Part shown: piece after piece, positions 3,563 through 30,581 of the stretch
Numbering within the stretch: the first letter of the stretch is position 1
Layout of the letters: each line of letters opens with the position of its first letter
DNA from: a virus
Direction: 5' to 3' (one strand)
Virus record (IMG/VR): IMGVR_UViG_3300020123_000220
Span: 1 to 31,338 of that record
DNA length: 31,338 nt
Position numbers and translations under genes: made by a program
Notes under the pieces: model-generated
Told to the model about the DNA's origin: nothing
Databases searched by the model: none
The model's input: the letters and a program-made list of their open reading frames with translations, nothing else

Positions 3563-4390
3563 ATGCGCCCGGCCCTGATCCGCGCCCTGTATCTCGTCCT
3601 GGGTCTTGTCATCGGCGTCGCCGGCACCGGCGCGGTCCTCGCATACGGCGCACCGGACCGGCCGTCGACGATCTGCTCGACGTCGACGACGCCCCTGGCG
3701 TTCCGTGAGCCACCACCGCATCTCGCGCCGTTCAGCGACTGGCTACCGCTGCCGCCCGCCCTCGAGCTGCCCTACGTCGACGGCATGCCCGTGTGGACCG
3801 ACGGCAGCTTCCATCCGGGGGAGGCGGTGGCTGACGGGATCCGCGCGTTGAACGCGGGTGATCGGACCGAGGCCGAGCGCCTCGTCGACGTGCTCATGGC
3901 GCACGCCGCTGGCGCGACGTTCCCATATCGGTTCGACTTCGGCGCGCCACCATGGACCCAGAAGGCACCCTGGGTCTCCGCCTACACCCAGGGCCTCGCG
4001 ACGGTGCTCTTCACGCGACTCGGCCGGCCCGAGGCCGCGGCGATCGCCGCGACGCTCGTCCCGAACGCCGCAGGCTGGTACGAGGAGTATCCAGGGGCGC
4101 CTGTCGTGGTGAACGGCGACATCTTCGCGGCGCTCGGGCTGTACGAGTACGGCCACGCGACCGGGGACCAGGCGAGCCTCAGGAAGTCGCTCGCGGCGAT
4201 CGCGCTCGTTCGAGCGCACATCGGCGACTTCTTGACGACGCGGGGCATCTGGTACGACCTCGGCCACACCCAGCGGATCAGCCCGCCGTACTACCAGACG
4301 CTCACCGACGAGTTCTCATGGCTGGCAGGGATCACCGGCGAGTCGTGCTTCAACGACGTCGCGGTGGCCGTCGTCTACGGTCACGGGTAG
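3563..4390 (+). CDS. Membrane-anchored glucuronyl C5-epimerase-like protein (moron)
   Basis: A 275-residue protein on the plus strand. Residues 5-29 are one hydrophobic segment (signal anchor), so the rest should lie outside the membrane. Residues 135-262 match the pattern of the D-glucuronyl C5-epimerase C-terminal domain: WVSAYTQGLATVLFTRLG (137-154), WYEEYPG (172-178), VVNGDIFAALGLYEYGHATG (182-201), IWYDLG (229-234) and YYQTLTDEFSWLAG (243-256). The family converts glucuronic to iduronic acid in polymers or shares that alpha/alpha toroid fold. Activity on a bacterial or phage glycan is inference. It is transcribed alone, opposite to the phage operons, and ends two bases from the convergent gene. 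This is the arrangement of a lysogenic-conversion gene. The active-site residues of the true epimerases were not verified. Confidence 0.65.
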   Translation: MRPALIRALYLVLGLVIGVAGTGAVLAYGAPDRPSTICSTSTTPLAFREPPPHLAPFSDWLPLPPALELPYVDGMPVWTDGSFHPGEAVADGIRALNAGDRTEAERLVDVLMAHAAGATFPYRFDFGAPPWTQKAPWVSAYTQGLATVLFTRLGRPEAAAIAATLVPNAAGWYEEYPGAPVVVNGDIFAALGLYEYGHATGDQASLRKSLAAIALVRAHIGDFLTTRGIWYDLGHTQRISPPYYQTLTDEFSWLAGITGESCFNDVAVAVVYGHG

Positions 4391-16210: not shown

Positions 16211-16956
16211 GCCGCGAGCTCCGTCCGGAGGAGGTCGACGTCGCACGCGAGCTCCGTCGCGACCGGCCGTGGGATGAGCTGGGCCCGGTACTCGCGGAGC
16301 GCCCGCGGCTTGCCGGCCCGGGCGAGCTCGAGGCAGCGGGCGTAGACCTGCCGGTTCCGGCGGCGGACGTCGTTCCGGTACGTCGTGTGGTTGCCTGTCT
16401 CGCGCGAGGTCGACAGGCTGCCCGGGCGGAGGCAGCGGTGGTAGGTCGGCTGGGTCGCGACGGCGTGCGGGCCAGTGATCCGGACGAGGTTGACGAAGAG
16501 CGAGTCCTGGCCGACGCGCTCGGCCGGGTTGTAGCCCCCGAACGCGAGCAGCCGGTCGGTCCGGAAGAGGCCGACCTCGTAGTTGACGCTGGCCGGCTTC
16601 ACGGGGCGCCCGGCGGCGTGCCACCAGACGCGCCCGGTGATCACGGCCGTCGACGCCTCGACGAGCGGCAGCATCTGCTCGAGGTGATCGGGGTTCACGT
16701 AGTCATCGGCGCCCATCGGGGCGAAGTGCTCGAACGGCGAGGCCTGCAGCATCGCCTGGAGGGCGAAGTACGGCCCGCGGTTGACCGCTCGCTGGTGGAT
16801 GACCAGCCGAGGATCAGCCGGCAGGGCTGGGACCGGATCCCCGTCGCCATAGACGACCACCCGGATGTCGCGCTCGGTCTGGGCGAGCGCCGATTCGACC
16901 GCCCGCGGCAGGAGCTCGGGTGCGCCCTTAAACGGGATCGCCACGAGGACCGTCAT
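16207..16956 (-). CDS. GT-A (GT2-like) glycosyltransferase
   Basis: A 249-residue protein from ATG 16956; the upstream in-frame ATG at 16986 is inside the previous gene. The start TVLVAIPFKGAPELLPRAVE and the helix ESALAQTERDIRVVVYGDG are standard GT2. The metal-binding DxD-like motif is MGADDYVNPDHLEQML (81-96, D84 and D85). Q-D at VGQDSLFVNLV could serve as the ED-type base motif. It transfers a sugar from a nucleotide donor, acceptor unknown. ATGA overlaps bind it to both neighbouring transferase genes, so the three are made together. No membrane segment, so it acts in the cytoplasm. Confidence 0.85.
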   Translation of the reverse strand: MTVLVAIPFKGAPELLPRAVESALAQTERDIRVVVYGDGDPVPALPADPRLVIHQRAVNRGPYFALQAMLQASPFEHFAPMGADDYVNPDHLEQMLPLVEASTAVITGRVWWHAAGRPVKPASVNYEVGLFRTDRLLAFGGYNPAERVGQDSLFVNLVRITGPHAVATQPTYHRCLRPGSLSTSRETGNHTTYRNDVRRRNRQVYARCLELARAGKPRALREYRAQLIPRPVATELACDVDLLRTELAA

Positions 16957-17963
16957 GCCGCCACCGCGACGCGTTCGGTCGCCCAATCCATGAGCACGTC
17001 AGCGGCTCGGCGGGCGGCGCCGGTCCGGTAGGCGTACACGAGCTCGAGCGCCCGCTCGCGCGCCTCACGCTGCTCCGGCCGGTCCTCGAGGGCCTGGTCC
17101 ACCGCCCCACCGAGCCGGCTCTGGTGGTCGACCTGAACGCCGACCGAGGCCGCCTCCCAGAACCGAAGACCGTGGTGGACCGTCCGCGAGTAGATCGGCG
17201 CGTTCAGCACGACGACGGGCCGGCCTGTCGCCGCGAAGGCGAACATCGCGCTCGTGTTGTCGGCGATGAACAGGTCGGCCCGCCGGCACACGTCTCGGAA
17301 GTCGCGGACGAGCTCGATCCCCATCCGCTCATACATCGAGGCGAGGCGATCGATCACCCGCGGATGGCCATGGCCGAGGACGGTGTATCGCTTCGCGAGC
17401 TCGGCGAGGGCCTCGCGGTAGTAGGGGAGCGCCGGCTGGGCCTCGGGTGCGATCAGGGCGTCGAAGTGGAACGCGATCGCGATCACGGGACCCGGTCCAG
17501 CCTCGCGAGGCGGCAGGGTGTCGAGGAACGGCGAGCCCACCACCTCAATTCGAGCGCCTGGGTACCTGACCCGGTCACGGGCCGCGGGATGCTGGCCCGG
17601 GTGGAGGAACAGCGACGCCGGGCGATCATCGCCGCCGGCATAGGACGGATGCTTTGCCGCCATGGCGCGGCCGCCATAGGACTGGCCGGCGCCGTGCTCC
17701 ATAAGCGCCAGGCGCGTGCGACGTGCCTTCACGGCCGCCGACAGGTCACCGGCCGCAGCGGTCAGGATCGGGCGATCGGATGAGGGGAGCCCGACAACCG
17801 CTCCGATGCCGTGGGTCGCGGCCCGCCGGATGAGCTTCGCAGCGACGGCCGGCTCGCGGACGGCGAACACGCCCCGGCTCTCCTCGGGCAGCGCATTCCA
17901 GACGGCCGCCAGGTGATCGACGAAGTGGACCTCGCCGGCGAGCATGTCGATCGGCTCGGTCAT
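16953..17963 (-). CDS. TagF/CDP-glycerol-phosphotransferase-like or GT-B glycosyltransferase
   Basis: A 336-residue protein from ATG 17963, overlapping the tail-terminator stop (ATGA). The C-terminal half has LGHGHPRVIDRLASMYERMG (196-215), CRRADLFIADNTSAMFAF (226-243) and ATGRPVVVLNAPIYSR (245-260), the order seen in CDP-glycerol glycerophosphotransferases and related GT-B enzymes (the D-x-S-S-x-M-like signature). EHGAGQSYGG (89-98) resembles their HG motif. It could transfer a glycerol-phosphate or sugar. There is no membrane segment. First of three transferase genes inside the head-tail operon. Confidence 0.7.
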   Translation of the reverse strand: MTEPIDMLAGEVHFVDHLAAVWNALPEESRGVFAVREPAVAAKLIRRAATHGIGAVVGLPSSDRPILTAAAGDLSAAVKARRTRLALMEHGAGQSYGGRAMAAKHPSYAGGDDRPASLFLHPGQHPAARDRVRYPGARIEVVGSPFLDTLPPREAGPGPVIAIAFHFDALIAPEAQPALPYYREALAELAKRYTVLGHGHPRVIDRLASMYERMGIELVRDFRDVCRRADLFIADNTSAMFAFAATGRPVVVLNAPIYSRTVHHGLRFWEAASVGVQVDHQSRLGGAVDQALEDRPEQREARERALELVYAYRTGAARRAADVLMDWATERVAVAA

Positions 17964-18418
17964 GAGCCGGATCCGTGGTGGGCGGCCGGTGCGTTCAGCC
18001 GGATCGTGACGTCGATCGCGATGCCGCGGACGTTCATCGAGCGGGCGGCGTCGGGCAGCACGTTGCTGACGTAGGCATCCCACCAGAGCGGGTGCCGGCG
18101 ATTCGTCGCCACGGCCGCCGTCATCGCGTCGAGGGCCTTGTCGAGGGTCTCGGAGACCTTGCGGTCGGCCGTGAGGACGCGAGATTCGCCCTTCGAGGCG
18201 ATCGTGTAGAGCACGCGCAACTGGAGGTCGGCCTCGTCCCACCGGCCAGGCAGGCCACCGGCCTCGTCGGTCCGCTGGGGCGCCAGGCGACGCGGCCAGA
18301 CATACAGCCGATGCGGGGAGACCTTGAACGGCTCGGCGGCGGAGTCGTCGACGACCATGCCAGGCGCGATCGGGATGAGGTCACGCAGCGCGTCGACCGC
18401 GGCGAGGATCGCACTCAC
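17960..18418 (-). CDS. Probable tail terminator protein
   Basis: A 152-residue protein overlapping the adaptor gene upstream (ATGA). It has a mixed alpha/beta pattern: a starting helix (ILAAVDALRDLIPIAPG), a beta strand before ADLQLRVLYTIASKG, a long helix (VSETLDKALDAMTAAV) and a final strand GIAIDVTIRLN. This arrangement and the position after the head-tail adaptor fit tail terminators, which cap the tube at the head side. No motif fixes the call. Confidence 0.5.
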   Translation of the reverse strand: MSAILAAVDALRDLIPIAPGMVVDDSAAEPFKVSPHRLYVWPRRLAPQRTDEAGGLPGRWDEADLQLRVLYTIASKGESRVLTADRKVSETLDKALDAMTAAVATNRRHPLWWDAYVSNVLPDAARSMNVRGIAIDVTIRLNAPAAHHGSGS

Positions 18419-20945: not shown

Positions 20946-22559
20946 TCACGCCCGGACCTTGAGCTGGGTGACTTCGGCGCCCGGCACAGGCAGCGCCGCG
21001 AAGCTCGCGGGACCAGGCGCGCCGTTGGCCGACGACGGAGCCGCGCCGGGGATCGCCGCGATCGCCAGGCCGGCCTCCGGCGAGAGCGGACCCGTGGCCG
21101 CCGCGGCGAGCTCCTTCCAGCGGGCGATCTCGGTCGGGCTGGCACCCCAGCGCTCCCACAGGACCTCGCGCGGCACACCGAGGGCGCCCATCTTGAGCAG
21201 GGCGTCGACATGCTGGCTCTCGGTCCGATTCTCCGGGTCCGCCCAGATCGTCTCGCTGTCCATGATCTGACCTCGTGGGTCACCCAGGATCCGGAACGCC
21301 AGGCGGACGATCTCCTCGTGGGCCTCGCCGAGGAAGAGCTGCTTGTCGATAACCTTCGTGACGAGCGGCGCCTCGACAGCCCGGAGCGCCTCGCCCGAGG
21401 GGAAGCTGCCCTGGCCACCGAGGATGTAGTGGTGCGGCGTCCGCGTGATCGTCGCTGCCATCTGGAGCCGCTGCTCGATCGCCTTCACGAACGGATCGAG
21501 GGCAGCGACGCTGAACTCGCCGAACTTGATCTCGCCGGTGCCCGGCTCGGTCGATCCGAAGCCCCACAGGCGGTCGCTGCCCGGCTCAAGCGGGCCAGTC
21601 GCGAACTCGACCTCGCCGGTCTCCTTGTTCTCAGTCAGCGGCAGGTTGATCCCGTACCGCTGGGGGAACGCCGCGAAGGCCGCGGCGACGAGCATGTCGC
21701 TCACGAGCTTGTTGATCGCGTCGTTGATCGGGATCGTCGTCGCGATCTCGGACAGGCCGATCATGCCGAGCTTGGGCTTGTTGACGAACGGCACGATCGG
21801 CACGACGCCGAGCGGGTTCGGCAGCGGCCACGGCTCGCCCGGGACCTCGCGCCGTTGCCAGCCGGCCAGCATCCCGAACTGGATCCGGTCGGCGTCCTCG
21901 GGCAGGACCGGCGGCACGACTGGGGCGAAACCGGCGAGGGCCTGATACTTGAAGGTGTTGTCGGGCAGGTACAGGGTCGCGAAGACCTTGCCCGTCCAGT
22001 CGTCGCGCCAGCGCCGGATCGCGGCACGGCGCTTGAGCGGATCCTCGTAATCGGCGATCACGAGTGTCGAGCGGGCGTCGAGGACGCGCATCAGCGGGTG
22101 GCGATCGTCATCGGGGTTGACCCAGACCCCGACGTAGCTGACCGATTCGATCAGGCTCGACTTGTGAAGGATCGTGCTGTAGGCGTCCATCTGGTTCCGC
22201 TGCCAGATGCCCCAGGCGTCCTTGTCGGCGGCCTCGAGATCCTGGACCGGGTCGGCCTTGGCCGCGCGCGCCGGCGCTGCCGCCTTCGCGCCCATCCGGA
22301 AGCCCTGGACGTGCATCCGCTCGGAGCACGCGTCGACGACGAGCTCGCAGATGTTCTCGGCGTAGCTCGCGAACAGGCTCCCGAACGCCTCGCGGAACTT
22401 CCGGTCGGCGTACTTGAGGTTGTGCCGTCCCTCGTAGTAGTCGCGCTTCGTCTGGAGCTCGCCATCGCGGGCGTTGAGGAGCAACGAGAGACGGTTCAGC
22501 CACCACTCGGGCGTCCCGGGCGTCGGAGCCGACGTGTTGGACCGGATGTCGAGCGTCAT
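20946..22559 (-). CDS. Portal protein
   Basis: A 537-residue protein, normal length for SPP1/gp6-type portals. The start PEWWLNRLSLLLNARDGELQ and TKRDYYEGRHNLKYADRKFR are typical N-terminal portal motifs (the YYxGxH stretch). Later parts include a helical stem region (PINDAINKLVSDMLVAAAFA) and a clip/wing section. The end is Ala/Pro/Gly-rich. The portal is the dodecameric DNA channel at one capsid vertex. It follows terminase and overlaps the 57-aa gene upstream (ATGA). Confidence 0.9.
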   Translation of the reverse strand: MTLDIRSNTSAPTPGTPEWWLNRLSLLLNARDGELQTKRDYYEGRHNLKYADRKFREAFGSLFASYAENICELVVDACSERMHVQGFRMGAKAAAPARAAKADPVQDLEAADKDAWGIWQRNQMDAYSTILHKSSLIESVSYVGVWVNPDDDRHPLMRVLDARSTLVIADYEDPLKRRAAIRRWRDDWTGKVFATLYLPDNTFKYQALAGFAPVVPPVLPEDADRIQFGMLAGWQRREVPGEPWPLPNPLGVVPIVPFVNKPKLGMIGLSEIATTIPINDAINKLVSDMLVAAAFAAFPQRYGINLPLTENKETGEVEFATGPLEPGSDRLWGFGSTEPGTGEIKFGEFSVAALDPFVKAIEQRLQMAATITRTPHHYILGGQGSFPSGEALRAVEAPLVTKVIDKQLFLGEAHEEIVRLAFRILGDPRGQIMDSETIWADPENRTESQHVDALLKMGALGVPREVLWERWGASPTEIARWKELAAAATGPLSPEAGLAIAAIPGAAPSSANGAPGPASFAALPVPGAEVTQLKVRA

Positions 22560-22729
22560 CGGCAGAACCTCACGCGTCGGCGATCCCTTCGCGGCGCCGG
22601 ATCGCCACGGAGGACGAGCTCGCAGCGCGAACAGGCGCTGCCGGTCATCCAGCGGCCGCGCGTCGTCCGTCCGCTGAACGGCTTTGGCCGATGTCCGAAG
22701 ACGAGGCAGACGAGCTCGGTCGGGCTCAT
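22556..22729 (-). CDS. 57-residue CxxC zinc-type protein between terminase and portal
   Basis: A frame of 57 residues, supported by ATGA overlaps at both ends (with the terminase stop and the portal start). It has C8 and H13 (LVCLVFGHRP) and C33/C36 (ACSRCELVL), the pattern of the small phage DUF1660-like proteins (C, GH, then CxRC). The rest is very basic. The role is unknown; its place between the two packaging genes suggests expression together with them. Confidence 0.6.
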   Translation of the reverse strand: MSPTELVCLVFGHRPKPFSGRTTRGRWMTGSACSRCELVLRGDPAPRRDRRRVRFCR

Positions 22730-24348
22730 CGCCGGATCACCAGGGCCTTCCGCGCGGAAACACGGGGCGCCGTGATCGCCCGGTGGACGGCGACGATCAG
22801 GGCGTAGGCGCCGGGGACCCTGGTCCCGACCTTCGCCCGGAGCGTCATCCCGTCGGCGAAGGGCTGCTCGACGACGTCGCCGATCTGCCGGCCGAGCTCT
22901 GCGTCGGCCTCATGGAGCAGGAGGCCCTGCGTGGCGAGCGAGCGCGTCGTGGCGGCCGCCTTCGCCAAGCGGGTCGGGCTCCGGGTCCCGACCGGGTCAT
23001 CGATCATGCCCGAGCCGAGGCGCTGGGCGGTGCCCTCGAGCAGCGCGCCGGTGTAGCTGATCTCGGGGCCCTGGACGGCGATCGCGACGCCATTCCGGAC
23101 CGAGGCGACCTTCGCCGGGTAGTCGCGCCGGAGCTCACCGAGATGCTCCTCGAGCGGGGCCAGCTCGAGGTAGTCGCCGACCGGCAGGACCGTCTCGCCC
23201 GGGAAGTGGGTGACCCGGACCCGGACCGTCTCACCGTGGCGCTGGGCGACGGCGATCGCGGCGGAGCGGTTGTCCTCGGCCACGATCGCCGCGGCGTAGG
23301 CCGGCTGGGCGGGATCCAGGCTGACGTCACCCTTCGTCGCGTCCCAGAGCGAGGCCGGCATCCAGCGCGTCGCGGCCGATTCGGTCCGGAGGTTGAAGAA
23401 GTACCGGAGCGCATCCTGCCAGGGCGTCGCGGGGTTGCGGATGTCACGGACAAGCCGCTCCGGACTGATCCAGCGGGCCTCGCCGTAGACGTGGCGGAGC
23501 TCGTCGGCGAGCCGATCGTCGGTCCATTCCGGCGACGGGATCTCACGCGGCCGCGTCGCGTGGTGGAGGACGCCTGGTTCGGGCATCGCCGGGTCGAACT
23601 GCTCGACGATCGAGTGCTCGCCGAGGACCGGCGCGTTCGCGGTGATGATGCCGCGGCCGTTCATCTTGGCCACGTTCCGCCGGAGGGTCCGGAAGAGCGC
23701 GGGCCCGCCGCGCTGCGGCGTCCAGAGCTGGCCCTCGTCGGCGGTGAACTTCGTCAGCCGCTGACCCTCGCGGGATCCGGCCGATGCGGTAACCGGCTCG
23801 AGCCGGCCGGGTCGGTCGCGGAGATAGAGGCGTGTCCGACCGAGATCGATCCGGAGCGTGTCGGCGGCCCGGCCGTCGTTGGCCGCGAGGAGCGAGTACA
23901 GGGCGCCGTAAGTGTTCTCGGTCTGGTCCTCGCTGACCGCGGCCTCCTGGACCCACGGCGCCGGGCGATCGCCGGTTCCCCACGGCACGCCGACGGGCTC
24001 GCCCGCGGCATCCCAGCCGTCGAAGCAGGCCGGCCCGGCGAAGTCGATCAGGTCGAGGATCGCGCCGATCGGGCTCTTGCCCCAGCCCTTCGCCTCCTCG
24101 TGGATCGCCAGCAGGTGGGCGAACTCGCCGGTGACCGGGTCGAGCTCGCCCCAGCGGACGATCCGGCGGGCCTGCTCGTCAGTCAGGACGAGCGGATCGC
24201 GCTCGTTGGCCGGCGAGGGCAGGAAGGCGTAGGTCCACTGCAGCCACAGCCAGCCGAGCGACGGGAACGGCCGCTGGTCAGTCGGGCCGCGCCAGCCGCG
24301 CCACTGGCGGCGGGGCTGGGTCTGTGCGGCCGCGACGGCGATCGTCAT
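22726..24348 (-). CDS. Terminase large subunit
   Basis: A 540-residue protein from ATG 24348; earlier ATGs are inside the small-subunit gene. Walker A-like EEAKGWGKSP lies at 85-93 (K91) and a Walker B-like TADEGQLW at 202-209 (D204, E205). The C-terminal half carries an RNase H-like nuclease fold; acidic residue D of YAAAIVAEDNRS is a likely metal ligand. The enzyme pumps DNA into the capsid and cuts it. TGATG coupling to the small subunit is as expected. Confidence 0.9.
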   Translation of the reverse strand: MTIAVAAAQTQPRRQWRGWRGPTDQRPFPSLGWLWLQWTYAFLPSPANERDPLVLTDEQARRIVRWGELDPVTGEFAHLLAIHEEAKGWGKSPIGAILDLIDFAGPACFDGWDAAGEPVGVPWGTGDRPAPWVQEAAVSEDQTENTYGALYSLLAANDGRAADTLRIDLGRTRLYLRDRPGRLEPVTASAGSREGQRLTKFTADEGQLWTPQRGGPALFRTLRRNVAKMNGRGIITANAPVLGEHSIVEQFDPAMPEPGVLHHATRPREIPSPEWTDDRLADELRHVYGEARWISPERLVRDIRNPATPWQDALRYFFNLRTESAATRWMPASLWDATKGDVSLDPAQPAYAAAIVAEDNRSAAIAVAQRHGETVRVRVTHFPGETVLPVGDYLELAPLEEHLGELRRDYPAKVASVRNGVAIAVQGPEISYTGALLEGTAQRLGSGMIDDPVGTRSPTRLAKAAATTRSLATQGLLLHEADAELGRQIGDVVEQPFADGMTLRAKVGTRVPGAYALIVAVHRAITAPRVSARKALVIRR

Positions 24349-24779
24349 CAGACGACCTTCAGGTGGGCGTAGCGGTTGTCGTCGAGCCCGACGGTCCCAG
24401 TACCGCGATCGGCCTCGGGTTGAGGCTCGACCTCGCCCGTCGTCGGCAGCGCCCAGCGCCGATCCTGCTGGCCCTTCGGCGTAATGCCCCAGCCATCCAT
24501 CGCCAGGCGGAGCTCTGACGCGCGGGCCCGGTCGCCGCGGAGGACGGCGTCGTAGAGGCGGATGACGATCTCGAGACCCGGCACGTCCTCGGGCTGCCAG
24601 TGGGCGGCGTACCAGGCGCCGAACCAGACGACCCAGACCTGGCGGGACCGGCCGAGGAGCTTCGCCGGCGGCTTCGGGACGTCGCCGTGCTGCCAGCCGG
24701 TGGCCGGCACCGCCCGCCAGTCGCCCCGAACCGGGACGGCGCGACGGCGGCGGGTCGTCTTGGGCGCGGGACCGCTCAC
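24348..24779 (-). CDS. Terminase small subunit (P27-like)
   Basis: A 143-residue protein from GTG 24779. This start is preferred because the N-terminus SGPAPKTTRRRRAVP is the usual P27-like opening; ATG 24845 would add 22 residues of non-typical sequence. The middle has LGRSRQVWVVWFGAWYAAHW and a helical segment VIRLYDAVLRGDRARASELR. Small subunits bind the packaging site and regulate the large subunit. It sits between an HNH gene and the large subunit, a normal arrangement for HNH-assisted packaging. Confidence 0.75.
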   Translation of the reverse strand: MSGPAPKTTRRRRAVPVRGDWRAVPATGWQHGDVPKPPAKLLGRSRQVWVVWFGAWYAAHWQPEDVPGLEIVIRLYDAVLRGDRARASELRLAMDGWGITPKGQQDRRWALPTTGEVEPQPEADRGTGTVGLDDNRYAHLKVV

Positions 24780-24852
24780 CGGGAGCCCGCCGAGGCTGGG
24801 AACCCGTACACATCGCGAGCGAACGCTGCTACCTCGCGCGCCCATCTGCCAG

Positions 24853-26179: not shown

Positions 26180-27331
26180 TCAGTGCCAGCCGCGGAGGTA
26201 ACGCGAGAGGGCGTAGATGCCAGCCGCGACCGCGAGCAGGACGAGGATCAGCAGCCCGACCGGAGCTCCGGGGGCTGGCGGTGGCGTCGGGCCAGGGGAG
26301 GGACTCGCGGACGGCGTCGGGCTCACCGACTCCGGCGGGCTGGCCGACGGGACCGAGCTGGCTGTCGCTGTCGGAGCCTCGGTCGCCGGCACGGCGGTCG
26401 GGACCGGCGTGACGACCTCGGTCGGGATCGGGGTCGACTCAAGCGTTGGCTCCACGGTCGGTGAAGGTGTGGCCGTGGGCTCTGGGGTGGGGAATGCCGT
26501 CGGCGTGGGAACCGGCGTCGGGACGGGCGTGGGCGGAGGGGGCGGCGCGTCGTTCACGTCGACCGTCGCGTAGAAGGCGTAGGGCTGCGCGACCTGGGCG
26601 TACGGCATCCAGGCGTCGCCGCCGAGGCCCCACGCGGTGCCCCAGGAGTTCCGAAGGCGAAAGCTTCCGCCGGCGACCGAGTCGTCCCAGCCGTAGGCGA
26701 GGATCGAGTGCCCGCCGGTCACGTAGTCGGGTGCGGGCAGGACGCCGCCGATCGGGTGCGACCAGCTGTGGTACCAGGGCGTGATGATCGCGACCGGCCC
26801 GTAGGCGAGGATCGCGGCCTTGACCGCGGCGACGGTCTTCGGAACGATCCAGTACTTGGCGATCCGGTGGTCGAAGGCGTTGCCGTGGGTGACCTCGGGA
26901 TAGCCAGCGTTGCGCATCTGCGACATCGCCGCGGATTCGTAGGCGCCGTTCGGCCCGCCCCCGATGGAGACGAAGAACGTCGGCTTGTCGAAGTTGAAGA
27001 AGACGTGTCCCTGGTCGATCCAGTCCTGCCACGCCTTGAGGGCGGCGGACGAGTAGGCCACGCACTGCGGCGTGAGTCCCTGGTTGAGGACCGGCGGCAT
27101 GTTCGGGGCGCGATATGCCGGCGCCAGCGCCGCGGGCGGCTCAGGCACTTCCTCGCCGGGCGCGGCCGCGGCCGGAGGCTCGAGGATCGCGCCGAGGCCG
27201 TACTCCGCGTCGGGCGCGACGGGGACCGTCGGCGTCGGCGTGCCATGCGAGATCGAGACGCTGGCCGCGATCGCGAGGATCAGCGCCGCGGCGACCTCGA
27301 TGCGGCGAAGCGAGCGTCGGTCAGTCATCAC
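26180..27331 (-). CDS. Papain-like (C1) cysteine peptidase, membrane anchored
   Basis: A 383-residue protein. Residues 11-28 are hydrophobic (signal or anchor). The catalytic set of papain fold is complete: Q84 and C90 in LNQGLTPQCVAYSSA, H208 in GGHSILAYGW, N228 in RNSWGTAWG. A Pro/Thr/Ser-rich linker (about 262-355) follows, then a C-terminal membrane segment (GLLILVLLAVAAGIYAL) and a short basic tail. The peptidase domain would sit outside the membrane, held by an extended stalk. Papain-like enzymes in phages are rare; it may act in lysis or on the host envelope, or be a host-acquired gene. It is flanked by lysis-type and HNH genes. Confidence 0.88.
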   Translation of the reverse strand: MMTDRRSLRRIEVAAALILAIAASVSISHGTPTPTVPVAPDAEYGLGAILEPPAAAAPGEEVPEPPAALAPAYRAPNMPPVLNQGLTPQCVAYSSAALKAWQDWIDQGHVFFNFDKPTFFVSIGGGPNGAYESAAMSQMRNAGYPEVTHGNAFDHRIAKYWIVPKTVAAVKAAILAYGPVAIITPWYHSWSHPIGGVLPAPDYVTGGHSILAYGWDDSVAGGSFRLRNSWGTAWGLGGDAWMPYAQVAQPYAFYATVDVNDAPPPPPTPVPTPVPTPTAFPTPEPTATPSPTVEPTLESTPIPTEVVTPVPTAVPATEAPTATASSVPSASPPESVSPTPSASPSPGPTPPPAPGAPVGLLILVLLAVAAGIYALSRYLRGWH

Positions 27332-27584: not shown

Positions 27585-28025
27585 TCAATGGAGCCCAGCC
27601 CAGTTCTGGCCGGCGACGACGGCGCTGACCGTGGTTCGGGCGACCCCGTACCGCTCCGCGAGCGCCCGGCGCTGCATGCCGGTCGCGGCCAGGGCCCGAA
27701 TCTCCTCGACCTGGGCCACAGTCAGCCTGGCGCGCCCATTTCGGTGACCCACGTTCTTCGGGTCGTGGCTGTCACGCCCCTTCAGGAACCGGTCGCGATT
27801 GTTGTCAGCCCGGGTGCCGAGGAACAGGTGCTCAGGGTTTACACACGGCGGGTTGTCGCACTTGTGGAGCACGCACAGCCCATTCGGAATGGGGCCGAAC
27901 GCCTCCTCCCAGGCCACGCGATGCGCCCTGACCCGAACGGGCCAGCCATCGGCTCCGCGGCCGATCGTGACCTCGCCGTAGCCTCTCTTGTGGATGCGGC
28001 CCTGCCATACGATGCAGCCGTCCAT
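27585..28025 (-). CDS. HNH endonuclease with C-terminal helix-turn-helix
   Basis: A 146-residue protein coupled to the XhlA-like gene by TGATG. The HNH core shows CIVWQGR, then VRAHRVAWEEAFGPIPNG, then CVLHKCDNPPCVNPEHLFLG and ADN. The C-terminus (LTVAQVEEIRALAATGMQRR, LAERYGVARTTVSAVVAG) is a resolvase-type HTH, as in the 815-1354 gene, from which it is clearly descended. It is inserted in the lysis-type block, and homing mobility is the usual explanation. Confidence 0.85.
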   Translation of the reverse strand: MDGCIVWQGRIHKRGYGEVTIGRGADGWPVRVRAHRVAWEEAFGPIPNGLCVLHKCDNPPCVNPEHLFLGTRADNNRDRFLKGRDSHDPKNVGHRNGRARLTVAQVEEIRALAATGMQRRALAERYGVARTTVSAVVAGQNWAGLH

Positions 28026-28231
28026 CAGTGGATCACCCCGAACGCCTTCGCCGCGGTGACGAGGATCCCGACGAGCGCGACACCGCCGGCAATGAGCGCC
28101 CGAAACTGCCCGACGCGCAGCTCGAGCGCCGTGACGCGGGCCACGAGATCAGCCTCTTCGAGCGTCCCCCGGATCCATGCGACATCGCGCTCGATCGCAA
28201 CGATCCGCTCACCCTGGCTGGCACCGGCCAT
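28025..28231 (-). CDS. XhlA-like small membrane protein of lysis block
   Basis: A 68-residue protein with an amphipathic or coiled-coil N-terminal half (GERIVAIERDVAWIRGTLEE, RVTALELRVGQ) and a single C-terminal membrane segment (ALIAGGVALVGILVTAAKAF). This is the layout of XhlA/holin-accessory proteins. It overlaps the preceding small gene and the HNH gene by TGATG. A role in membrane lesion formation with the holin-like protein is likely. Confidence 0.65.
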   Translation of the reverse strand: MAGASQGERIVAIERDVAWIRGTLEEADLVARVTALELRVGQFRALIAGGVALVGILVTAAKAFGVIH

Positions 28232-28660: not shown

Positions 28661-28672
28661 GAAAATGTCGGT

Positions 28673-28704
28673 TCGGGTCGTCTCGGGTCGTGTCCTGTCG
28701 TGTC
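28673..28704. repeat. attP arm repeats, left side
   Basis: Two copies of TCGGGTCGT (28673-28681 and 28683-28691) are followed by GTCCTGTCGTGTC (28692-28704). The 13-mer recurs exactly at 28826-28838 on the other side of the tRNA-His core. Paired short direct repeats around a core are typical of integrase arm-type binding sites. Confidence 0.5.
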
Positions 28705-28719
28705 GATGCGATCGGGGAG

Positions 28720-28764
28720 TGGGGTGGCCTATGGGGGTCGAACCCATAACCTGCGGATCCACAA
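28720..28764 (-). other. attP: attP core: 45 bp identical in form to the 3' half of tRNA-His(GTG)
   Basis: The minus strand reads anticodon loop TTGTGGA (28764-28758, anticodon GTG), the 3' side of the anticodon stem, a 5-base variable loop, a T-arm (ATGGG/CCCAT around TTCGACC), the 3' acceptor strand AGGCCAC, the His-specific C73 and an encoded CCA (28722-28720). The 5' half is absent: there is no D arm or 5' acceptor. On the other side of the loop the would-be stem has an extra base, marking where host identity stops. This is the classic attachment core of an integrase that inserts in tRNA-His. The plus-strand ORFs through this sequence are artefacts. Confidence 0.85.
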
Positions 28765-28794: not shown

Positions 28795-28825
28795 AATCAG
28801 TCACAGAGTTCGTCTACGGTGTCGC

Positions 28826-28838
28826 GTCCTGTCGTGTC
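28826..28838. repeat. attP arm repeat, integrase side
   Basis: GTCCTGTCGTGTC, an exact 13-bp copy of the repeat at 28692-28704. It overlaps the last two bases of the integrase stop codon region. Together with the left copy it brackets the tRNA-His core. Confidence 0.5.
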
Positions 28839-29922
28839 AGCCGCGCTGGACGAACCGGTCGAGGGCGTTGACGGCCTTCCGCTGAGCGCCCGGTTGGACG
28901 TGGGCGTAGATGTTCGCCGTGATGCTCGGTGAGGCGTGGCCCAGCTGGTCCGAGATCGTCTGCATGGCGACGCCGGCGCCGAGCAGCAGCGTCGCGTGGC
29001 CGTGCCGGAGGTCGTGGACCCGCATCGGCGGCAGCTTCGCCGTGGCGAGCAGCTCGCGGAACCGATGGAGGGCGACGTCGACGCGGAGCCGCTCCCCCTT
29101 GCGCTCGCCGACGAACACCGGCGCCTTCGGATCGATCGTCGAGCTCGCCGCACGATGGGTCTTGAGCGAGGCGATGACCGACGGCGGGATCGGGATCGTC
29201 CGGACCGACCGGGCGGTCTTGCCGGCCCGCACGGCGACGGTGCCCCGCTCGAGGTCGACATCGCGCCAGTCGAGAGCGAGGGCCTCGCCGACCCGCATCC
29301 CGGAGCCGAGCAGGAGCTCGTAGAGCGCCGCCTGGCGATCGCCGGCGACGGCTGCGAGAACCTCACGGGCCCGGGTCGGCGTCATCGCCGTGATCTCGTG
29401 CCGGGCCACCTTCGGCCGCTTGGCCTGGCTGACCACGTTCCGGGTGAGTAGCCCGTCGTCGACGGCGGTTCGGAGCGCCATCGAGAGCGTCGTCAGGATC
29501 CGCCGGACCGTCGCCCCCGACAGGCCCGCCTTCGTGCGGGCCCGGACCAGGCGATCGACGTCGAGCGGCCGGAGGTCCTCGAGCGGCATCCCGCCCAGCA
29601 CCGGCCCGATGTGGTGGTCGACGTGGCCGGCGTAACTCCGGTAGGTCGCCCGCCGGACGGTGGCCTCGACGCGCTCGAGCCAAGCCGTGAGGTAGGTGTC
29701 GAGCGTCTGTGCCGGGTCACCCAGATCTCGATCGACGCCGGCCCGGGCGAGGAGGGCCGGCAGCGCGAGCTTCGCGGCCGCTTCGTTGCGAGCGATCCGG
29801 GTCAGGTACTTCCGCCTGCCGTCCGGCCCGCGGTAACCAACCTGGGCGGCCCAGCGACCATCGGGCCTCGGGAACACCGCGCCGGATCCGCGCTGGCGCC
29901 GCGGGCGCTTCCTCCTCGCCAC
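28837..29922 (-). CDS. int: Tyrosine site-specific integrase
   Basis: A 361-residue protein starting at GTG 29922; the long upstream open frame to 30633 is a shadow of other genes. An N-terminal arm-binding domain (about 15-60, YRGPDGRRKYLTR) and core-binding domain (about 70-170) precede the catalytic domain. Catalytic residues are complete: R210 (GSGMRVGEAL), K235 (AGKTARSVRTIPIP), H303 and R306 (HDLRHGHATLL), H329 (QLGHASP) and Y339 (NIYAHV). It recombines attP with the host tRNA-His site. The stop is about 70 bases from the attP core, as usual. Confidence 0.95.
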   Translation of the reverse strand: MARRKRPRRQRGSGAVFPRPDGRWAAQVGYRGPDGRRKYLTRIARNEAAAKLALPALLARAGVDRDLGDPAQTLDTYLTAWLERVEATVRRATYRSYAGHVDHHIGPVLGGMPLEDLRPLDVDRLVRARTKAGLSGATVRRILTTLSMALRTAVDDGLLTRNVVSQAKRPKVARHEITAMTPTRAREVLAAVAGDRQAALYELLLGSGMRVGEALALDWRDVDLERGTVAVRAGKTARSVRTIPIPPSVIASLKTHRAASSTIDPKAPVFVGERKGERLRVDVALHRFRELLATAKLPPMRVHDLRHGHATLLLGAGVAMQTISDQLGHASPSITANIYAHVQPGAQRKAVNALDRFVQRG

Positions 29923-29932
29923 GTCGGGGAGT

Positions 29933-30112
29933 CTAGGCGACGTGTCGACCCCGGAGCGACGCGACGTAGGTCTCGAGCTCGGTCTCGGCGACCCGAACCC
30001 GACGCCCGACGCGAAGAACGCGGATCCGCCCGGCGTCCACCAGACGCTCGACCGTCCGCCTCGAAACGCGCAGCTTCTCGGCGACCTCGTCGAGGGTGAG
30101 AAGCTCAGCCAC
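29933..30112 (-). CDS. xis: Excisionase-like HTH protein
   Basis: A 59-residue protein starting at GTG 30112 and overlapping the RlpA-like gene by 8 bases. Residues 4-25 form the winged HTH typical of excisionases (LTLDEVAEKLRVSRRTVERL), followed by the wing (GRIRVLRVGRRVRVAETELE). It lies 10 bases upstream of the integrase gene. It would bend attR/attP DNA and steer recombination to excision. Confidence 0.8.
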   Translation of the reverse strand: MAELLTLDEVAEKLRVSRRTVERLVDAGRIRVLRVGRRVRVAETELETYVASLRGRHVA

Positions 30113-30581
30113 CGAGCTGGACCTCGACGCGCAGGAGGCCCCTCGAGAGCGGGCCCAGGGCACGGAACGCCTCGTCGGACAGGTCGACGACCCGCGTGCC
30201 CGAGCAGGCGCACCAGTCGACGAGCTTGACCCGGATGCAGGTTGACCGGCAGACGGTGACGGACCGCCCGCGCCAGCCCGGGCCCAGCGCCTGGCGGAGC
30301 GCCGGCCCGGCCGCGGCGTACAGGCCGTCGGGCCCCGTCGCGTACCAGGTGGCGATCCCCGACAGCCCGTGGCGTGGCGCGCTCGTGGCTGTCGGGGCGG
30401 GAACGTGAGGCGCGACGAGCGCCCGAGGCGCCTCGGCCAGCTCCCGGTCCGGCTCGCTCGTACCCGAAGGTGCGGCCGGGATGACAGGAGCTGGCCGTGA
30501 GGCCGAGAACGCGAGTGTCCGGGCGGTCCAGCCGAGCATGAAGGCGATCACGATCAGGAGGGCGAGGATGAGCCGGCTCAC
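30105..30581 (-). CDS. RlpA-like double-psi beta-barrel protein, exported
   Basis: A 158-residue protein. Residues 1-20 are a hydrophobic signal or anchor. A Pro/Ala linker to about 68 is followed by an RlpA-like barrel: GIATWYATGPDGLYAAAGPA (75-94), LRQALGPGWRGRSVTVC, then IRVKLVDWCACSGTRVVDLS (116-135) with Asp D122 and D133. RlpA proteins are lytic transglycosylases that cut glycan strands free of peptides. Four Cys (C111, C115, C124, C126) may form disulfides. A wall-directed enzyme here could aid lysis or entry. It is joined to a small membrane protein (ATGA). Confidence 0.75.
   Translation of the reverse strand: MSRLILALLIVIAFMLGWTARTLAFSASRPAPVIPAAPSGTSEPDRELAEAPRALVAPHVPAPTATSAPRHGLSGIATWYATGPDGLYAAAGPALRQALGPGWRGRSVTVCRSTCIRVKLVDWCACSGTRVVDLSDEAFRALGPLSRGLLRVEVQLGG

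Follow-up and report, generated by a model that had tools for sequence, protein, structure and literature searches.

Tyrosine-integrase phages that use tRNA genes as attachment sites are the closest described counterparts of the locus analyzed here. In mycobacteriophages, the att cores are typically 30 to 45 bp long and span the 3' half of the tRNA, flanked by arm sites (PMC10865867). Prophages of Variovorax reside at tRNA-His(GTG) (PMC9658991), and exact matches between attP and tRNA sequences have been used to assign hosts to marine viral contigs, a match alone providing broad taxonomy only (PMC3861242). A further arrangement, tRNA-dependent lysogeny, also combines a tyrosine integrase with integration at a tRNA gene but makes use of a core of ~10 bp and a phage-encoded tRNA (PMC10865867).

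The stretch of DNA that we analyzed, hereafter the window, comprises an entire IMG/VR virus record (31,338 bases, classed as linear). Positions 28720 to 28764 of its minus strand form a perfect 3' half of tRNA-His(GTG), which is very likely the core of an intact attP in a temperate, tailed Chloroflexota phage. Whereas the mycobacteriophage integrases target mycobacterial tRNAs, the target here is a Chloroflexota tRNA-His, and the window integrase is only ~31% identical to the mycobacteriophage integrases listed (PMC10865867). The Variovorax prophages agree with our phage in the tRNA, the half that is used, and the tyrosine integrase (their att core reads CAGATTGTGATTCTGGTCGTCGTGGGTTCGAGTCCCATCAGCCACCCCAA), but they are listed as Podoviridae-type, measure about 52 to 68 kb, and belong to another bacterial phylum (PMC9658991). 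Likewise, the marine examples are integrase-bearing metagenomic contigs in which a tRNA fragment (39 to 46 bp) exactly matches a host tRNA, but their hosts are marine and other tRNAs are involved (PMC3861242). tRNA-dependent lysogeny was considered and rejected, since the core measures 45 bp and ARAGORN detects no whole tRNA in the window, although the contig may be incomplete. Taken together, core identity, integrase residues, phage DNA on both sides, arm-type repeats, and the in silico restoration of the tRNA at attL characterize the locus as the attP of a tRNA-integrating tyrosine-recombinase phage. Mechanistically, this is the familiar lambda type of site-specific recombination with a tRNA gene as its target; the interest lies in the link to a host and in the tRNA-His hotspot.

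The half tRNA-His and its host counterpart

Read on the minus strand from 28764 to 28720, the core is TTGTGGATCCGCAGGTTATGGGTTCGACCCCCATAGGCCACCCCA. It contains the anticodon-loop bases TT-GTG-GA, a complete and paired T-arm (ATGGG/TTCGACC/CCCAT), and the 3' acceptor strand AGGCCAC, followed by C73 and an encoded CCA, precisely the 45-bp half tRNA-His that the initial annotation had described. A similarity search for tRNA-His within the window returned the core at 100% over 45 bp (E 6e-16) and a runner-up of 22 bp at 82%; no second tRNA-His-like stretch was found.

A degenerate 41-base pattern was compared with ~85,000 species genomes (GTDB). It matched 11 loci, all of them intact tRNA-His(GTG) genes of Chloroflexi MAGs, and exactly one of these, in Chloroflexi bacterium CF_16 (VBEC01000018.1; locus L021), agreed with the core at 45/45 positions. 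The earlier proposal that the host target is tRNA-His(GTG), which was to be checked against bacterial tRNA-His genes, is borne out by this identity with an intact gene. The identity breaks off right at the core edges, with GGTC and CTCC bordering the core in the phage and CGGA and ACTC in CF_16. When the CF_16 5' half is joined in silico to the phage copy (attL), ARAGORN recognizes a complete tRNA-His, which it also finds in the in silico attB and which is absent from attP and attR. By means of this copy, insertion of the phage very likely leaves the tRNA-His gene unbroken.

An exact 46-mer had zero matches in the GTDB genomes because it included a base just outside the core; an exact 41-mer retrieved no viral contig record other than this one; and a BLAST search of GenBank phages with the region returned, for the most part, complete tRNA-His genes of unrelated T4-like phages.

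CF_16 is a metagenome bin, and its scaffold name suggests that it stems from a 30 cm soil sample. No related integrase was found in CF_16 at E 1e-20, and its tRNA-His site appears to be empty of the integrase family of the window. Judged from the tRNA match, the predicted host can be taken as settled at the level of lineage rather than strain, namely, a Chloroflexota lineage near CF_16. The exact core match thus points to the host group of an otherwise host-unknown phage and ties a temperate phage, in a testable manner, to a Chloroflexota class that is represented here by metagenome bins only. As a set, the integrase, attP, and attB might be worth trying for site-specific integration in such bacteria.

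Flanking genes and arm repeats

Profile matches of the window proteins place phage genes on each side of the core. On one side lies, as claimed before, a tyrosine integrase (28837 to 29922, minus strand; PF00589, 1.1e-27; Phage_int_SAM_3; phrog_1, 2.3e-76), with a gap of 72 bp between its stop codon and the core. Its start is probably a GTG at 29922, the open frame extending to 30633, and its R, K, HxxR, H, and Y residues align in all five sequences compared (the window and four relatives). Next to it is an excisionase-like helix-turn-helix protein, a candidate directionality factor (29933 to 30163, minus strand; PF12728 HTH_17, 1.6e-14; phrog_66 excisionase, 7.1e-10); a reading frame similar to this gene occurs upstream of int in two related viral contigs, L001 and L002. 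On the core's own strand, the excisionase-like gene and the integrase are upstream and the late genes downstream. The late side comprises an HNH endonuclease (27585 to 28025, minus strand; phrog_59, 1.3e-30), a papain-like (C1) peptidase (26180 to 27331, minus strand; PF00112, 5.7e-7), the large terminase subunit TerL at the start of the packaging/head block (22726 to 24813, minus strand; phrog_9, 1.4e-26), the portal (20946 to 22559), and further genes for scaffold, major capsid protein (MCP), tail, and tape measure. A relative of the peptidase comes after int and the half tRNA in G032:C172 (L039; 39% over 182 amino acids), and none was retrieved when viral contigs were searched with it. Of the late/lysis block that had been placed on this side, the late part therefore stands, whereas lysis genes beside the core are not supported, the small open reading frame (ORF) at 28025 to 28231 having no match in the searches.

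Some other ORFs of the window deserve mention. Directly upstream of the excisionase-like gene, a DPBB/lytic transglycosylase-like ORF (30105 to 30581, minus strand) falls just below the Pfam cutoff. In the head-tail region, an ORF at 16953 to 18242 (minus strand) that is conserved in the relative L055 (59%) matches CDP-glycerol glycerophosphotransferase (PF04464, 1.5e-8). An ORF at 3563 to 4390 (plus strand) matches the C terminus of D-glucuronyl C5-epimerase (PF06662, 2.6e-10), a match that seems out of the ordinary for a phage.

Both flanks of the core carry an 18-nt direct repeat, GACACGACAGGACRCGAC, with 17/18 identity, a score reached by 0/300 shuffles. On the int side it reads GACACGACAGGACGCGAC (28821 to 28838, minus strand) and overlaps the int stop codon; in the other arm it reads GACACGACAGGACACGAC (28687 to 28704, minus strand) and is accompanied by two weaker copies that start at 28667 and 28677 with 10-bp spacing (28667 to 28694, minus strand; repeat family D1, 72% and 83%). 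From their sequence, the 18-nt repeats are probable integrase arm sites, and since they are shared, both flanks most likely derive from one phage. As controls, neither the DNA downstream of the CF_16 tRNA-His gene nor the DNA beyond the half tRNA of a prophage-bearing MAG, G031, shares the arm (in the latter case, 274/300 shuffles reach the score). The comparison between the window and the L001 arm scores above most shuffles (3/300 reach it), as might be anticipated for related integrases, so that arm likeness alone is not absolute proof of one phage. The arm repeat of L002 is weak (22/300).

We infer from this layout that the integrase would attach to the core and, as arm sites, to the direct repeats on either side, and that the core would recombine with the 3' half of the host tRNA-His gene. 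Strand exchange would most likely fall within the anticodon loop or beside it, where the identity ends on the left. With the displaced 3' half replaced by the phage copy, the tRNA would remain whole at attL, and the 3' half that originally belonged to the host would end up beside int, at attR. The HTH_17 protein adjoining int may well act as the excision factor.

Physical state of the DNA and alternative readings

Host genes directly beside the core would be at odds with an intact attP within the contig; instead, phage genes occupy both flanks, the core matches a host tRNA-His, and both flanks bear arm repeats, all in agreement with the initial annotation. Its suggestion that the sequence came from nonintegrated phage DNA is supported by the absence of host genes next to the core and by the repeat common to both flanks, and the sequenced DNA was presumably not integrated. 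The finer part of that suggestion does not carry over to the contig, in which virion DNA, a circle, a concatemer, and an identical tandem lysogen would look alike. This phage was not encountered in integrated form. The ends of the window show no end repeats or overlap and no replication genes were recognized in it, which makes the contig probably incomplete and lacking part of the early region; its circularity and circular gene order are thus presumed. The closest structural relative, L055 (portal, 72%; MCP, 74%), lacks both a related integrase and a half tRNA and so is of no help in closing the ends.

That the junction arose in a lysogen with identical copies in tandem, or in a replication concatemer, rather than in virions or an excised circle, seems improbable to us. 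Its junction sequence would be exactly that of attP and indistinguishable from it in a contig, but no host DNA is recognized at either contig end, and such an origin would alter the physical state only, leaving the identity of the site unchanged. Considerably less likely is a composite junction, in which two different elements lie in tandem at one tRNA-His gene, the core being the attR of the element on the int side and the terminase side being the left end of the other. Stacked elements may occur in the host class, given the many occupied tRNA-His sites and a contig, L155, that carries two tRNA-His 3' fragments. However, the two arms of the window carry one repeat, which the DNA past the half tRNA in G031 does not; the scan of window proteins revealed a single integrase; and a relative, G032:C172, has the same order of int, half tRNA-His, and C1 peptidase, which supports native linkage. 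That the half tRNA has no function in integration, being either a remnant of decay or a product of chance, is hardly conceivable, since its 45 bp are perfect and end precisely at the tRNA 3' end, an intact integrase lies 72 bp away, and relatives retain matching but different versions of it.

Related modules and the tRNA-His site in the host class

The relatives likewise point to an attP core. Related integrases encoded by other viral contigs and by Chloroflexi MAGs are located immediately 5' of half tRNA-His copies, the sequences of which vary. The integrase of L001 (IMGVR_UViG_3300048080_000224) is 65% identical to that of the window, and its half tRNA-His, which deviates at a single base, is identical to the tRNA of three other Chloroflexi MAGs, represented by L013, L014, and L020. 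In L002, with an integrase of 45% identity, the half tRNA-His has six differences and a T-stem that is still paired (ACGGG/CCCGT). Half tRNAs that differ and yet remain host matched or paired are as expected of att cores that track different hosts. In an integrase tree, the window groups with four other relatives that neighbor half tRNA-His copies, the support for the group as a whole being weak (0.49), and the type found in another MAG, G049, is separate.

The head module of L001 is different, with an HK97-type protease and another capsid family, so the integration module occurs with unrelated structural genes. In the phage represented by L040 and L001, an integrase and an att core that are both closely related to those of the window accompany this different capsid module (HK97-type protease, phrog_10), which suggests exchange of the integration module. 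A small ORF after the core of L001 resembles the window ORF at 28025 to 28231 in layout but could not be aligned with it, and no homology is claimed.

Integrated examples exist in the host class, of which 177 genomes were surveyed (class of CF_16 and the MAG G011). In G031, int is followed on one contig by a half tRNA-His identical to the MAG's own gene, and a second contig carries the full tRNA-His gene and then a 22-nt arm repeat that is also present at the int-side prophage end. In G049, a single contig contains, in order, a full tRNA-His gene, ~5 kb of DNA, an integrase, and a half tRNA-His; related pairs of integrase and half tRNA-His are found in other MAGs as well. In 8 of the 177 genomes, a full tRNA-His gene is separated by 0.8 to 12.6 kb from a downstream 3'-half copy on the same contig and strand, and several more have tRNA-His halves on other contigs. 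Hence, integration at tRNA-His recurs in the host class. Not every full-to-half interval carries a recognized integrase. It is possible, though we put this forward only tentatively, that tRNA-His is a docking site shared by structurally unrelated temperate phages with one integrase-attP module and by small elements of ~1 to 13 kb; the latter may include phage satellites, which would compete with such phages or depend on them. One full-to-half interval, of 3.2 kb (L053:8215-11557, in G003:C73), has no recognized integrase and encodes a 730-amino-acid PKD-domain protein.
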